Below are positions 17,821 through 23,170 of a stretch of 64,000 nt of DNA, in pieces (positions within the stretch are counted from its first letter, which is position 1; each line of letters opens with the position of its first letter). The DNA is from Klebsiella pneumoniae (GTDB lineage Bacteria > Pseudomonadota > Gammaproteobacteria > Enterobacterales > Enterobacteriaceae), in NCBI RefSeq assembly GCF_000742135.1, contig NZ_KN046818.1, forward strand, positions 4,848,295 to 4,912,294, in the 5' to 3' direction. Made by a program: the position numbers and the translations under genes. Below the pieces are notes generated by a model that was not told the origin of the DNA, searched no databases, and worked only from the letters and a program-made list of their open reading frames with translations.

Positions 17821-17826
17821 ATTATA
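17821..17826 (-). promoter_or_regulatory. Predicted -10 element of the rph-pyrE promoter
   Basis: A perfect TATAAT on the minus strand, 37 bases before the rph start codon. No good -35 hexamer was seen at the correct distance. Confidence 0.5.
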
Positions 17827-17879
17827 CGAATTTCATGGCAAAAAGCCTATGCCCACTCCAGCCGGACGCGCCGATAATG

Positions 17880-19019
17880 TCAGTCCAGCGTTTTACGATA
17901 AGATTTCAACCCCACGCCAATGACAATCACCGCCAGGCCTATCAGCGGCAAGAGGTCAGGCAACAATGCCGTTGCTGAATAGCCTTTCAGCATAATGCCC
18001 TTAACCAGGCGGATGAAGTAGGTCAGCGGTAAACAGGAGCCAATGGCTTTCGCCCAGTCAGGCATACTAATAAAGGGGCTAATAAAGCCGGACAGCATAA
18101 TGGAAGGGATAAAGTAAAAAGAGGACATTTGCAGCGCCTGCAGCTGGTTTTGTGCTAAGCCAGAAATACCGATACCAATTGACAGACAAAGAAAGACATA
18201 AATTAACAGCACAAAAAATAGTAGGAAGACGCTACCGTGAAGGGGGATATCGAACAACAAAACGGCGGCAATCAGGATTAACGTCGCCTGAAACAGACCA
18301 ATGATAACAAAAGGCGTTATTTTCCCAATAATGACCTCAAGCCCGGACAACGGAGAGACCAGTAAATTTTCTAACGCCCCGTTTTCTCGCTCGCGGGTAA
18401 TTGACAGGGCGGTCATCAGGATTAACGTTGTACTGAGTATAGACCCCATAATACCGGGAATAGTATTAAACTGGGTTATCCCCTCAGGGTTAAACATGCG
18501 ATGAATGATAAGCTCGAAATCATCCTCTTTTTGCACCACACGCATGTCGCCCGGCAAATCGTGCTGAAACATCGACTTCGCCACCTGCACAAGGGCGCTG
18601 AGCGCATTCCCCGTGGTGATCGGATCGATGGCATCCCCCTGAATTAATAGTTGTGGCTTTTCTCCACGCAGTAACTTGCGCGTAAACCCTTCAGGGATCG
18701 TCACGATAAAAGTGACATCCCCCCGCACAAAGGCTTTCTGCGCCGCCTCTTCTGAATCGACAGGAATCATCGAAAAATACCCGGTATTTTGCGCTTCCGT
18801 CACAAAGATTTGACTCATGCGTTCGGTATCATAATTTAGTAAGGCGGTCGGAAGATTATGCGGATCCATATTGATGGCATAGCCAAGAATGATCAGCTGA
18901 AAAAGAGGTGTCAGGAGCACCATACTGATGCTGACTTTATCACGGCGTAGCTCGTGAATTTCCTTAATAACCACGCCAATCCACCGCGTAACGGAGAAGC
19001 TAAAATTAATTTTTTTCAC
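17880..19019 (-). CDS. ABC-2 type permease of a putative lipid or amphiphile exporter
   Basis: Inner-membrane permease of 379 residues of the YhhJ/YbhR type. One membrane segment near residues 33-50 is followed by a large periplasmic domain (about residues 55-190), then five hydrophobic segments. Before the second membrane segment, SITRERENGALENLLVSPL is the typical ABC-2 coupling region. The start overlaps the end of the ATPase gene by 14 bases, so translation is coupled. It is the last gene of a four-gene minus-strand operon (acyltransferase, HlyD-like protein, ATPase, permease). Codon use and base composition are AT-richer than in rph next to it, which indicates acquisition as a unit. The exported substrate is not shown by the sequence. 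Confidence 0.85.
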   Translation of the reverse strand: MKKINFSFSVTRWIGVVIKEIHELRRDKVSISMVLLTPLFQLIILGYAINMDPHNLPTALLNYDTERMSQIFVTEAQNTGYFSMIPVDSEEAAQKAFVRGDVTFIVTIPEGFTRKLLRGEKPQLLIQGDAIDPITTGNALSALVQVAKSMFQHDLPGDMRVVQKEDDFELIIHRMFNPEGITQFNTIPGIMGSILSTTLILMTALSITRERENGALENLLVSPLSGLEVIIGKITPFVIIGLFQATLILIAAVLLFDIPLHGSVFLLFFVLLIYVFLCLSIGIGISGLAQNQLQALQMSSFYFIPSIMLSGFISPFISMPDWAKAIGSCLPLTYFIRLVKGIMLKGYSATALLPDLLPLIGLAVIVIGVGLKSYRKTLD

Positions 19020-19923
19020 AATTATTTTTCATCAAGTAGGTAAATGCATCTTCCAGATTGGTATCCACCTTACAGAACTCATAACCCTGTTGCGTAAAGG
19101 CAAAAAGCGCGGATTTTAACTTCGCTTCATCTCTGGATGTAATATAAAGCTGATTGCCAAAAATGACCGTTTGCTCAATATCCGGCAAGCGCTGTAGCTG
19201 GCTTTCAAGCAGCGTCAGACCGGCGCCGCTGGTTCGCATGGTAATCAAATTCTGGGAGGCGATAATCGACGCAATAGTGCCATTCGCCAGCAGCCGACCA
19301 TAAGAGAGATAGGCAACCTTATGGCAGCGCTCAGCCTCATCCATATAATGCGTGCTCACCAGTATCGAGATCCCCCGGTCAGAAAGCTGGTGCAGCATTT
19401 GCCAGAACTCTCGCCGCGCCTTGGGATCCACGCCAGCAGTCGGCTCATCCAGAAATAGCAAAACAGGTTCATGCAACATACAGGCGGCGAGGGCCATTCT
19501 TTGCTTCCAGCCCCCAGAAAGCTCCTTAGCCAGCTGGTGCTGTCGGGCAGTGAGGCCTAACTCAGAAAGCGCACGTTCAACCCGATCTCTACGCTGATCG
19601 AGGCTATATAACCGCGCAATAAAAAGTAAGTTTTCCCGAATAGTTAAATTTCCCCACATTGAGAAATACTGGGTCATGTAGCCTATCTTTTTTTTTATTT
19701 TTTCCCGCTTCGTAAAGATATCCATACCCAGACAAGTACCTTCACCGGAATCCGGCGTAATCAAACCACACATCATTCGAATCGATGTCGTTTTTCCGCT
19801 ACCGTTCGGACCGAGAAAACCATAGATCTCGCCTTTTGCTACCTGTAAAGAGAAATCCTTTACGACGTGATGCTCGCCAAAATGTTTATTGAGATTTTTT
19901 ACATCAATACAAAGATTATTCAT
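19006..19923 (-). CDS. ABC transporter ATP-binding protein of the same exporter
   Basis: Cytoplasmic ATPase subunit of 305 residues. Walker A is GPNGSGKTT near residue 37, the signature motif is LSGGWKQR, Walker B is LLFLDEPTAGVD, and the switch histidine is in STHYMDEAERC. The C-terminal 70 residues form a small accessory domain of the DrrA/YbhF type. I chose ATG 19923 (MNNLCIDVKNLNKHFG) over the frame's earlier start; it lies 8 bases inside the end of the HlyD-like gene, again showing coupling. It has a single nucleotide-binding domain, so two copies should join with the permease. Confidence 0.9.
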   Translation of the reverse strand: MNNLCIDVKNLNKHFGEHHVVKDFSLQVAKGEIYGFLGPNGSGKTTSIRMMCGLITPDSGEGTCLGMDIFTKREKIKKKIGYMTQYFSMWGNLTIRENLLFIARLYSLDQRRDRVERALSELGLTARQHQLAKELSGGWKQRMALAACMLHEPVLLFLDEPTAGVDPKARREFWQMLHQLSDRGISILVSTHYMDEAERCHKVAYLSYGRLLANGTIASIIASQNLITMRTSGAGLTLLESQLQRLPDIEQTVIFGNQLYITSRDEAKLKSALFAFTQQGYEFCKVDTNLEDAFTYLMKNNCEKN

Positions 19924-20881
19924 CGCCAATAATCTCCACATCAAACGGTTGGCCGATTTTCATCCGCCCTGCCTGCTGCAGCGCAGGGATAGCCTCCGCC
20001 ATAAAAATGAGCTTCTCACGACGTTTCGTACTATAAATAACTGGAGGCGTAAACTCGGCCTCAGGGCTGATATAGTTAATAACGCCAGCAATGGGCTCAG
20101 CGCAACCATCGCATATAAGTTTTACCTTAGATCCGATTTTAAATTTACCGAGCTTCGCTTCGGGTATAAAGAAGCGTACTTTTATATTCTCAGGAGGTAA
20201 CAGACTGATTATTGGTTTACCAGCAGAAGGGCGCTCCCCGGCACGATAAATAATATCGAAGACTTTAGCATTGACCGGAGAAACAATCGTCGTTTGCTGG
20301 ACATCCCACAGCGCCTTATCCCGTTCGAGTTTTGCCGCGGCCACCATTGAGCGCTGCTTGCTAATCTCATCCTGCCGGGCAGGGAGTTGCCGTGCTTTGA
20401 GTTGATTAATTAACTCTTCAACCTGTGCGCCTTTTTGAGTTAATTCATCCCGGATATCCTCCCATTCCGCAAGCGATATGGCATGATTGGCGTAAAGATT
20501 ACGATATCGCCCAAGCTGCCGCTTTACCTGGGATTCTGCCGATTGTGCTTTTTTAATCTGCGAACGTATAATATCCAGCTCTTCAGGCCGTTCGCCAGAT
20601 TCCAGATTTCGTAATAGAGCGCTCTCTGCTGATAGCTTTTCCTCAGCGCGCAGGAAAATATTTTGCGCATCGAAGGACTCAATCTTCACTAACTCCTGTC
20701 CTGCGGCGACGTTATCTCCTTTACTGATCAAGATCCGTTCTATTTTTTCATTACCAGAATATGAAAGGTATACAAATTCTCCATGTGAATAACCGGATAA
20801 CATGTTATCTGGTTTGTTATCACACCCGGTGTGTATCAGCACCGATATCAATATAATAAATACATTTATTGGCTTTCGCAT
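19916..20881 (-). CDS. HlyD-family periplasmic adaptor with a possible lipoprotein signal
   Basis: Membrane-fusion/adaptor protein of 321 residues that would link an inner-membrane exporter to the periplasm. The N-terminal hydrophobic segment ends in IHTGC-D; if Cys20 is lipidated, the following Asp is the classic signal that keeps a lipoprotein in the inner membrane. However, His at -3 is not a usual lipobox residue. Then come a first half-lipoyl motif (ISKGDNVAAGQELVKIES), a long helical hairpin rich in Glu, Lys and Arg (about residues 75-185), a second half-lipoyl motif (TIVSPVNAKVFDIIYRAGE) and a beta-barrel domain. It resembles YbhG/YhiI of E. coli in architecture. It lies 89 bases after the acyltransferase gene and overlaps the ATPase gene. 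Confidence 0.82.
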   Translation of the reverse strand: MRKPINVFIILISVLIHTGCDNKPDNMLSGYSHGEFVYLSYSGNEKIERILISKGDNVAAGQELVKIESFDAQNIFLRAEEKLSAESALLRNLESGERPEELDIIRSQIKKAQSAESQVKRQLGRYRNLYANHAISLAEWEDIRDELTQKGAQVEELINQLKARQLPARQDEISKQRSMVAAAKLERDKALWDVQQTTIVSPVNAKVFDIIYRAGERPSAGKPIISLLPPENIKVRFFIPEAKLGKFKIGSKVKLICDGCAEPIAGVINYISPEAEFTPPVIYSTKRREKLIFMAEAIPALQQAGRMKIGQPFDVEIIGDE

Positions 20882-20970
20882 TAAAACGCATCCATACGCA
20901 TATCATTTCCCTTATCACTACGGTCTGGATTGAGGCACGCTCGCTCCAGGACCGGACAATCATCGTCAGT

Positions 20971-22671
20971 TTAATCTCTTAAATAATGCTTAACGTAGCT
21001 TTCATTCAATTTATCTATAGAGCTCAGATTTAACCCAGCTATCGAATTAAAAGAATCATCTTTTGTGAATGCAAGAATCGACGATCCGCCCGGGGAGAAC
21101 CATTTAGCACTCTGTTTAAAAGGCCAGGGAAGTTCATAACCTTCTTCTCTCAGCAGGTGATTAAGCATGCTCCAGTCTGCTCTAAAATCTTCGCCACAAA
21201 ATGGAGTATCATCCTGTACATTTTCGGCAGTGAACAATGCTATCGGCGTACAAAAATCAGCTGTCGAGGGAAAATATATATTATAGAAACTGATGATGAG
21301 TTTCTGTACTTTTTCAGGAAAAGCTCCAGGAATGGTCAGCACACCCAGCAAGTATTTATAGTCCGGATATCTTTTTATAAAGTCAAATATCCCTTGCCAT
21401 AAATAATCAAGCACCTTACTTTTTTGATAAGGTTTCTGAATAAAACCGCGGCCAATTTCCACACACTTCTCTAAACAGGAATAGGCATTATCATGGTATT
21501 TAAACAAGCTGTTGCTATAGAGGCCTGTTACACCATGTTGGGCCAGCTGCTCGCCAACGGGCATAACACGATATGCTCCCAGGATTTCCACATCAGAAGG
21601 ATCCCACAAAATGATATGATAATAACTTTCATCAAAAACATCGTTATCTCGGTCGTTACCAGTTCCGGCACCAATATCGCGATAACAGCGTTCGCGTAAG
21701 CGCCCTAACTCATCAATAATGGGTGAGGTTCGGTTAGTATTACAGCGATATATCACTAGTTTTCTACCGTCTTCAAACTGCCTTAATATTTCGCACTCCT
21801 CTATTGCGCTAATTAGCTCCTCTTTACCTGGTTCTAATTCTTGCGGCGCAATCGTATCTAACAGAGCCGGGCCATTCTTCGCTATACTCTGGAGGTGCGT
21901 CAAACATACATTTGCCGCGGCAGAAAGATCTTTATTGTATTCTTTAAACGAGGATAAGGCTATTTGCTGTCCTATATTGATTTTCATGGTCTTGCCATGA
22001 TGGCGGAGAGCTTCACGAATAACCATCATGTTCGACAGTTGCCGCCAGAATGTTGCAGTAAGATAATAAATCTTACTGTTTGCTCCCGTAATATGAATTG
22101 GTACCAATGCTGCATTATTTCTCATAGCAAGCTGTAAAAAACCGGGGTTCCACTTATGCTCCTGTAACCCGGAAAGAGACCAGTTAGCTAGCTTACCCGC
22201 AGGACATATAATCAATACGCCTCCTTTTCGCAGGTGATCGTTCATCTCGCGGAATTTTTTATGGCTCATCTTACCGGCCATATTCTCAATTCCAATGGTA
22301 AGTTCCGATACCTGGGGGAATATAATTGGCAAAACGTGATTAGCTATTATTTTTATATCACTCCTGACTCGGGAGACCGTATGTATTAAGCTAAGTCCAT
22401 CGATAACCGTCGGATGATTTGAAATAACAACCGTAGCCCCATGCTCAGGTATGTTGTTAAATTGGTGGCGTTCGCTTTCACATTTCAACTCAAGGAGTTC
22501 AACAACTGCATTAACCCACTCGACCCCATTTTTATTAACGAGTCGCTCGTTATATATTAAGCGAGAAAATACCTTATTGCCAAATGCCGTCCTGAACAGC
22601 CATTTTTTCCAAAAAGGTATGGTTGTATTTGGAAAAAATTCCCTTACGACTCTGTCAAAGATAGCGTCCAT
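20971..22671 (-). CDS. OlsF-like bifunctional acyltransferase (predicted ornithine/aminolipid synthase)
   Basis: A 566-residue fusion of two acyltransferase domains. Residues about 1-280 form a PlsC/lysophospholipid-acyltransferase domain with the catalytic HX4D motif at 86-91 (HPTVID) and a variant of the substrate-binding motif at 155-160 (ICPAGK). Residues about 303-510 resemble the OlsB/hemolysin-like GNAT family: RLRERCYRDIG, DVFDESYYHIILWD, VEIGRGF at 404-410 and the following KVLDYLW. This order, O-acyltransferase then N-acyltransferase, is that of OlsF of Serratia proteamaculans, which forms ornithine lipids alone. The gene heads the operon and has a good promoter. The start is ATG 22671 after AAGGA. 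The amino acid acceptor (ornithine, glycine or other) cannot be read from the sequence. Confidence 0.72.
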   Translation of the reverse strand: MDAIFDRVVREFFPNTTIPFWKKWLFRTAFGNKVFSRLIYNERLVNKNGVEWVNAVVELLELKCESERHQFNNIPEHGATVVISNHPTVIDGLSLIHTVSRVRSDIKIIANHVLPIIFPQVSELTIGIENMAGKMSHKKFREMNDHLRKGGVLIICPAGKLANWSLSGLQEHKWNPGFLQLAMRNNAALVPIHITGANSKIYYLTATFWRQLSNMMVIREALRHHGKTMKINIGQQIALSSFKEYNKDLSAAANVCLTHLQSIAKNGPALLDTIAPQELEPGKEELISAIEECEILRQFEDGRKLVIYRCNTNRTSPIIDELGRLRERCYRDIGAGTGNDRDNDVFDESYYHIILWDPSDVEILGAYRVMPVGEQLAQHGVTGLYSNSLFKYHDNAYSCLEKCVEIGRGFIQKPYQKSKVLDYLWQGIFDFIKRYPDYKYLLGVLTIPGAFPEKVQKLIISFYNIYFPSTADFCTPIALFTAENVQDDTPFCGEDFRADWSMLNHLLREEGYELPWPFKQSAKWFSPGGSSILAFTKDDSFNSIAGLNLSSIDKLNESYVKHYLRD

Positions 22672-22705
22672 ATTAAAATCCTTTTTATAGAACTCATCTT
22701 AAACG

Positions 22706-22734
22706 ACTATACTAGCGTTCTTTCAGTCGGACAA
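22706..22734 (-). promoter_or_regulatory. Predicted sigma70 promoter of the acyltransferase-exporter operon
   Basis: On the minus strand TTGTCC (22734-22729) and TATAGT (22711-22706) are separated by 17 bases and lie 35 bases before the OlsF-like start codon. No 18-bp Pho box with two CTGTCAT repeats was seen near it, although ornithine lipid genes are often phosphate-regulated. Confidence 0.6.
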
Positions 22735-23130
22735 TACCGCATAAAACTTAAAAAGGCCAAAACAAAACAATTAGATATAATTAATACAACAGTATTCTCA
22801 CCATAAATACAATCACCAAAGTTTTAATAAATTTATAGTAATCAATGCAAAAAAAACATACATAATGCTTAAAGGTAATACCCTATCTCATTTCTGGTGG
22901 TTATACTTCCTAAAACTCACAGAATAGCTTGTCTGGTGGTATATGCATTTGTACAAAGGCATCCGAATTCCATGCCCGTATCTAATATCAGAAAATATTA
23001 ACTACGGATTCCCATAATATATAACCCCACCTACAGCCCCTGGTGAAAATAACTTTGCGGCGATATCCCTTAAAACAATCGTCCTTGAAGTATTTCATCA
23101 CTATTCCTGTTAAGTCACCGCCCGCACGGC
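22735..23130. other. AT-rich gene-free stretch between the exporter operon and yicC
   Basis: About 400 bases with long A/T runs, many stops in all frames and no ORF of note apart from antisense overlap with yicC. Composition matches the operon to the left, not yicC, so the right edge of the acquired segment is probably near 23100. I saw no integrase remnant, tRNA or convincing terminal repeat. Confidence 0.6.
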
Positions 23131-23136
23131 TATAAT
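23131..23136 (+). promoter_or_regulatory. Predicted -10 element of yicC
   Basis: Perfect TATAAT 34 bases before the yicC start codon, with a TGTTAA hexamer at a 17-base distance as a weak -35. Confidence 0.5.
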
Positions 23137-23170
23137 CCTTGCATTCATTATTACGAAAACAGGAACGCCT

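Follow-up and report, generated by a model that had tools for sequence, protein, structure and literature searches.

Does the locus described here both make an aminolipid and carry it away from the inner membrane? We analyzed a stretch of Klebsiella pneumoniae DNA of 64,000 nucleotides (the window), in which a four-gene unit sits between rph and yicC and encodes an OlsF-like acyltransferase (the island synthase), an HlyD-like adaptor, an ABC ATPase and an ABC-2 permease. We tentatively propose, with a confidence somewhat short of even, that a divergent aminolipid synthase is combined here with a TolC-type exporter, which would move its product toward the outer membrane or out of the cell and would carry another substrate as well. 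Family and fold, the differences that set the synthase subfamily apart, its conserved linkage to exporter genes, purifying selection and the occurrence of exporters without OlsF were computed directly; the catalysis, product, cargo and TolC docking of the island system we infer. The features of the locus are as follows.

22672..23170, no strand: AT-rich stretch between the synthase gene and yicC
22706..22734, minus strand: promoter-like site TTGTCC-17-TATAGT upstream of the synthase gene (consensus match; 12 sites found against 12.2 expected by chance)
20971..22671, minus strand: gene for the OlsF-like bifunctional acyltransferase, 566 amino acids (open reading frame and Pfam)
20882..20970, minus strand: gap of 89 nt from the synthase gene to the adaptor gene, identical in two other K. 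pneumoniae records compared
19916..20881, minus strand: gene for the HlyD-like membrane-fusion adaptor, 321 amino acids (HlyD_3, Pfam)
19006..19923 from ATG, minus strand: ABC ATPase gene, 305 amino acids (ABC_tran, Pfam); the open reading frame list starts it at a TTG at 19944
17880..19019, minus strand: ABC-2 permease gene, 379 amino acids, GTG start (ABC2_membrane_3, Pfam)

An earlier annotation made from the letters alone (the sequence-only reading) described four coupled minus-strand genes forming an acquired operon. Positions and strand were as it gave them, but overlap is limited to the last three genes (8 nt between adaptor and ATPase, 14 nt between ATPase and permease), and the synthase gene stands 89 nt off. 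The operon was indeed more AT-rich than its surroundings, with a guanine-plus-cytosine (GC) content of 44.7% compared with 58.2% for the window without 17823-23170, and the five 4.8-kb stretches poorest in GC within the window begin at 18001-18801. It also separates rph from yicC as claimed: rph starts approximately 90-220 bp from yicC in all 17 genomes of the genus that do not have the operon. Acquisition fits the low GC content and the patchy presence of the operon (three of 20 genomes of the genus). Over 20 kb, the genome of the window agreed with K. pneumoniae records at 99.5%. All four genes aligned at full length and without gaps to CP052389 at 98.9-99.7%. In CP125156, the genes for synthase, ATPase and permease contain small indels, which look like sequencing errors because rph of that record has them too.

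The enzyme and its place in the OlsF family

The N-terminal half of the island synthase matched PF01553 (30.5 bits, cut-off 23) and PF19576 (28.1 bits, cut-off 27), and the C-terminal half matched PF13444 (67.8 bits, cut-off 22.4; 72.1 bits in the genome-wide search), giving a PlsC/LPLAT-fold domain at residues ~26-267 and a GNAT-fold N-acyltransferase domain at ~300-560. The GNAT core residues R324, E327, D342, D344, D347 and E405 are kept. The HX4D motif expected in the PlsC-type domain was present as H86-D91, with both residues kept in 10/10 members of the subfamily described below; canonical OlsF, however, carries HX5D, the deletion in the island synthase being derived. In addition, the PAGEVSR block of canonical OlsF was altered in all ten members (PAGKLA in the island synthase), E335 and S409 were replaced, and sites invariant in canonical OlsF were changed. 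Against the NCBIfam equivalog for OlsF (NF052615), the island synthase scored 464.7 bits, under the curated cut-off of 620, and seven other subfamily members scored 463-508, whereas three canonical copies reached 791-797. In a tree built by a quick method, with long-branch warnings, the ten exporter-linked synthases lay on one side of a branch and 68 canonical proteins on the other (Shimodaira-Hasegawa-like approximate likelihood ratio test 100).

Therefore, canonical OlsF was rejected as a label, as the curated cut-off was missed and the clade is separate. Judged by its sequence, the island enzyme belongs to the OlsF family as a divergent second representative, in a subfamily of its own. The sequence-only reading had called it OlsF-like, which holds for its domain order and PF13444 match but not for membership of canonical OlsF. 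It had placed the C-terminal domain in the OlsB/OlsF family and named a placement outside it as evidence to the contrary; the domain fell inside (PF13444; predicted model nearest FeeM).

The structural comparison bears on one alternative. In a predicted model of modest quality (pTM 0.46), the top structural neighbors of the GNAT half were FeeM, an N-acyl amino acid synthase, and acyl-homoserine lactone synthases. On this reading, the product might be a soluble N-acyl amino acid or some other small acylated compound acting as a signal or surfactant, and it would be secreted by the exporter; the PlsC-like domain would then be either inactive or directed at a different acceptor. The altered PAGEVSR block would suit this idea, and TolC routes suit soluble amphiphiles. 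However, H86 and D91 are kept in 10/10 members (selection having been measured gene-wide, not per domain), and we consider this alternative very improbable.

The genome holds another gene of the family. A canonical OlsF (791 bits; 34% identical to the island synthase) lies at G000:C1:866118-867779 (L002:1453-3171) between genes that we read as hemB and tauD, and the hemB/tauD order around a canonical-type OlsF is also annotated in an Enterobacter hormaechei record. As both PF13444 matches of the genome lie in OlsF-type proteins, K. pneumoniae has two candidate genes for ornithine lipids, the canonical copy and the island synthase. According to PMC11828411, strain KPNIH1 of K. pneumoniae produces ornithine lipids when phosphate is at 50 uM, E. 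cloacae produced the same ones, and olsB and olsA orthologues are absent from Klebsiella. Since E. cloacae makes the same lipids and the Enterobacter record examined carries canonical OlsF, the canonical copy is the likelier source of those reported in K. pneumoniae. The sequence-only reading had pointed to the ornithine lipids made by Serratia OlsF alone; this known product cannot simply be assigned to the island enzyme, which belongs to a separate clade below the cut-off, in a genome with a canonical OlsF besides.

It could be argued that the island enzyme is a second ornithine lipid synthase under different regulation, comparable to VCA0646 beside VC0489 in Vibrio cholerae, and that the exporter genes are passengers in its transcript. 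According to PMC12186959, both OlsF proteins of V. cholerae are functional, with low phosphate inducing one and low salt the other; the low-phosphate ornithine lipids of K. pneumoniae and the retained HX4D pair and GNAT core residues point the same way. However, the two V. cholerae copies share 54% identity (PMC12186959), compared with 34% here, and the island enzyme falls below the OlsF cut-off with changes at canonical-invariant sites. Moreover, the exporter linkage is conserved at several insertion sites (see below), which is unexpected for passengers. We regard this explanation as improbable.

Linkage, distribution and selection

The synthase query matched 132 of 392 genomes of the family at E 0.001. 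Full-length matches formed two groups, one of nine genomes (with the window's among them) at 47% identity or above and the other at 31-37%; some genomes had fragments only. A search of the genus added a tenth island-type synthase (G401, 77% identity), and in the genus sample (n = 20) the island type was found in 3/20 genomes and a 32-34% copy in 20/20. Among the matches listed for the order sample (219 of 394 genomes matched) and the class sample (36 of 369 genomes at E 1e-50), there was no further high-identity member; the window's gene aside, none of those listed exceeded 37% identity. A scan of genome contigs gave two relatives, the G050 locus and a canonical-type OlsF. The E. coli genome set gave no match for 17822-23170 (near mode) or 17880-21800 (distant mode).

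In all ten members found of the synthase subfamily, the genes downstream of the enzyme are those for adaptor, ATPase and permease, with order and strand the same throughout. In contrast, an adaptor relative stood alongside canonical OlsF at none of 68 loci, and a weak ATPase match was seen at two, one of them in an annotated taurine transport gene cluster; these 68 loci were picked by search tools rather than at random, most with ~1.5 kb per side. The check proposed earlier, of OlsF homologues for conserved HlyD/ABC-2 linkage, thus gave a positive answer. Among the open-licence papers listed by our searches, we found no report of a link between OlsF and an exporter, nor of an aminolipid paired with an exporter. 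In G162 (L035, L006), the adaptor match is in two pieces and a stop lies near the end of the synthase match.

The unit was not confined to one site. It lies at rph-yicC in three Klebsiella (for genomes with G numbers, those of the window's genus), G130 and G298, and at other sites in G016, G162 and G381. In G249 it follows phoU (identified by Pfam in this genome only) on the same strand in a layout resembling pst-phoU, and G050 has the same layout (L037:5154-8424 and L040:8691-11701 for the G249/G050 loci). Such a position might point to a connection with phosphate, but no Pho box was conspicuous. Upstream of the K. pneumoniae island (22672-23170), PhoB- and PhoP-box-like sites were no better than in shuffled sequence: the best PhoB-like site matched 8/13 positions (shuffled mean 8.7, maximum 11) and the best PhoP-like site 8/10 (shuffled mean 7.9, maximum 10). 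Over ten upstream regions, the best PhoB-like site matched 10/13 in G130, without a shuffle comparison, and the canonical OlsF copy had 9/13 (shuffled mean 8.5). The second hexamer of the promoter-like site is identical in two other Klebsiella, and the first differs in G401.

Three further readings of the island were considered and set aside. Recent plasmid cargo was rejected, as two almost identical records labelled "plasmid", out of 29 giving a match of any kind, carry chromosomal flanks (such as pyrE and coaBC), one being 5.4 Mb; recent phage cargo was rejected, as an alignment-based scan of viral contigs found no relative; and for anti-phage defence the matches were limited to generic ATPase ones.

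Among three Klebsiella, the ratio of nonsynonymous to synonymous divergence (dN/dS) of the synthase was 0.11-0.15, a whole-gene measure indicating purifying selection, and that of the permease was 0.02-0.035. Protein identity was 97-98% for the permease compared with 77-80% for the synthase. Synonymous divergence (dS; window vs L032, L106) was 0.79-1.14 for the synthase, 0.44-0.66 for the exporter genes and 0.13-0.35 for the flanks; the higher value of the synthase than of its neighbors suggests separate allele exchange.

Exporters with and without the enzyme

The adaptor is a predicted lipoprotein with Cys20 and Asp at +2 (box HTGC, the usual Leu missing), and a Cys near the N-terminus was aligned in 22/22 adaptors compared. 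By the sorting rules, a lipoprotein Cys with an adjacent Asp marks an inner-membrane lipoprotein. The adaptor is nearest EmrA among solved chains, and its hairpin tip matches RxxxLxxxxxxS exactly (RYRNLYANHAIS, residues 125-136). This pattern is found in 15/15 clade adaptors and, among seven distant ones, at the tip in one and elsewhere in another. PMC3391258 describes it as the motif by which MacA and AcrA bind TolC, with RLT as its form in HlyD; docking of the adaptor to TolC would follow. The ATPase has the Walker A and Walker B motifs and the LSGG signature. Together, the adaptor, the ATPase and the permease probably form a TolC-type tripartite exporter spanning the envelope.

In the mechanism we propose, the C-terminal GNAT domain would acylate an amino group with a (hydroxy)acyl chain, and the N-terminal PlsC-like domain would attach another acyl chain, so that the product would be an acyloxyacyl aminolipid, possibly with a headgroup other than ornithine. 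At the inner membrane, the lipoprotein adaptor, ATPase and permease would pick up this lipid, or its lyso form, and pass it through TolC, either toward the outer membrane or into the surroundings. The exporter would be the older part; it would have acquired the enzyme on a single occasion and would handle at least one substrate from another source.

Several observations weigh against this proposal. PF13444 is not by itself proof of an ornithine lipid, as an E. coli control matches above the cut-off too. Fixed differences are weak evidence of specificity, as two long-branch clades always show some; E335 was rejected as an ornithine-side-chain residue, its column being Glu in 68/68 canonical OlsF but in only 6/20 OlsB-type proteins (five of the 20 exceed the curated OlsB cut-off), in a stretch that aligns poorly. 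The nearest solved chain of the permease was "ABC transporter G family member 23-like" (E 2.7e-13), which is probably the ceramide/insecticide transporter of PMC12578276; two paralogues match the same chain, so that this likeness is not specific, and lipid specificity could not be drawn from it. The same genome has two other ABC-2 permease pairs of similar general type (G000:C1:1413762-1416065 and 376556-378765), 26-30% identical to the island permease.

Other points against it concern exporters that lack the enzyme. The permease query matched 23 of 392 family genomes at E 1e-60, 14 of them at 67% identity or more; nine of these 14 have the synthase, and the other five (G293, G098, G209, G283 and G345) retain the exporter genes with OlsF decayed or gone. 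All five exporter-only loci sit at the yicC-pyrE site. Synthase remnants were clear in G293 and G345 and weak in G283 (111 columns at 26%), and none was found in the G098 and G209 loci. Four of the five have no PF13444 match genome-wide; G345 has a canonical OlsF. Purifying selection persists on the exporter genes between G098 and G209 (dN/dS 0.05-0.10), and nine more exporters, with permease identities of 36-47%, have no OlsF alongside. In genus g98 (L092:4246-5556, L094:4126-5313), a nucleoside transporter-like gene occupies the position between yicC and the exporter at which one would look for the synthase; the PF07662 basis for it is from L092 only. In a tree of 24 permeases, 15 (10 with synthase, five without) formed a clade with support of 100/99, the nine OlsF-less ones falling outside; branching inside the clade was mostly unresolved. 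The most parsimonious account has a single recruitment of the synthase by an exporter and two or more losses.

These exporters raise the alternative that what the pump carries does not come from the enzyme, being instead a toxic lipophilic agent or a different lipid of the envelope; the OlsF-type enzyme would then be a helper that alters the membrane to protect against the same stress. The five exporters kept without an intact OlsF (four in genomes with no PF13444 match), the nine more distant ones with no OlsF alongside, the far greater conservation of the permease than of the synthase and the nearness of the adaptor to EmrA drug-pump adaptors all favor it. However, the constant order and strand of synthase and exporter genes in 10/10 subfamily members and the purifying selection on the synthase do not, and we judge this explanation quite possible, though doubtful. 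The same five genomes argue against a strictly dedicated exporter. A bolder form of our proposal seems rather unlikely: a dedicated aminolipid secretion system of enterobacteria including K. pneumoniae, in which an OlsF derivative with an altered active site would produce an aminolipid with a headgroup other than ornithine, and an ABC-2/HlyD/TolC pump would either deposit this lipid on the outer leaflet or release it. We know of no described route for aminolipid delivery to the cell surface; the island offers a setting for asking whether a pump delivers such a lipid.

Comparison with known systems

Canonical OlsF (NF052615; Serratia proteamaculans, V. cholerae VC0489/VCA0646) shares with the island enzyme the order of the PlsC-like and OlsB-like fusion, length and invariant GNAT residues, and differs in the motif, block and site changes, score and exporter linkage described above. 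GlsA and GlsB (NF053697, NF053696) have the same two domain types, but as separate proteins, and the matches of the island enzyme (99.6 and 126.5 bits) are far under their cut-offs of 260 and 300; the GlsA-like protein examined retains NHPxG (HX5D), unlike the island enzyme. For the exporter, the best NCBIfam match of both ATPase (244.4 bits) and permease (208.9 bits) was the RbbA type (NF033858), presumably the YhiI-RbbA-YhhJ system; the island proteins, however, are separate, shorter and far under the 1050-bit cut-off of the fused protein. The island permease is 26-27% identical to a paralogous pair in the same genome that we take to be RbbA/YhhJ. A functional parallel is offered by DevBCA-HgdD, in which, according to PMC8277102, an adaptor, an ABC transporter and a TolC homologue export a lipid, the heterocyst glycolipid; the permease there is of the MacB type rather than ABC-2 as here.

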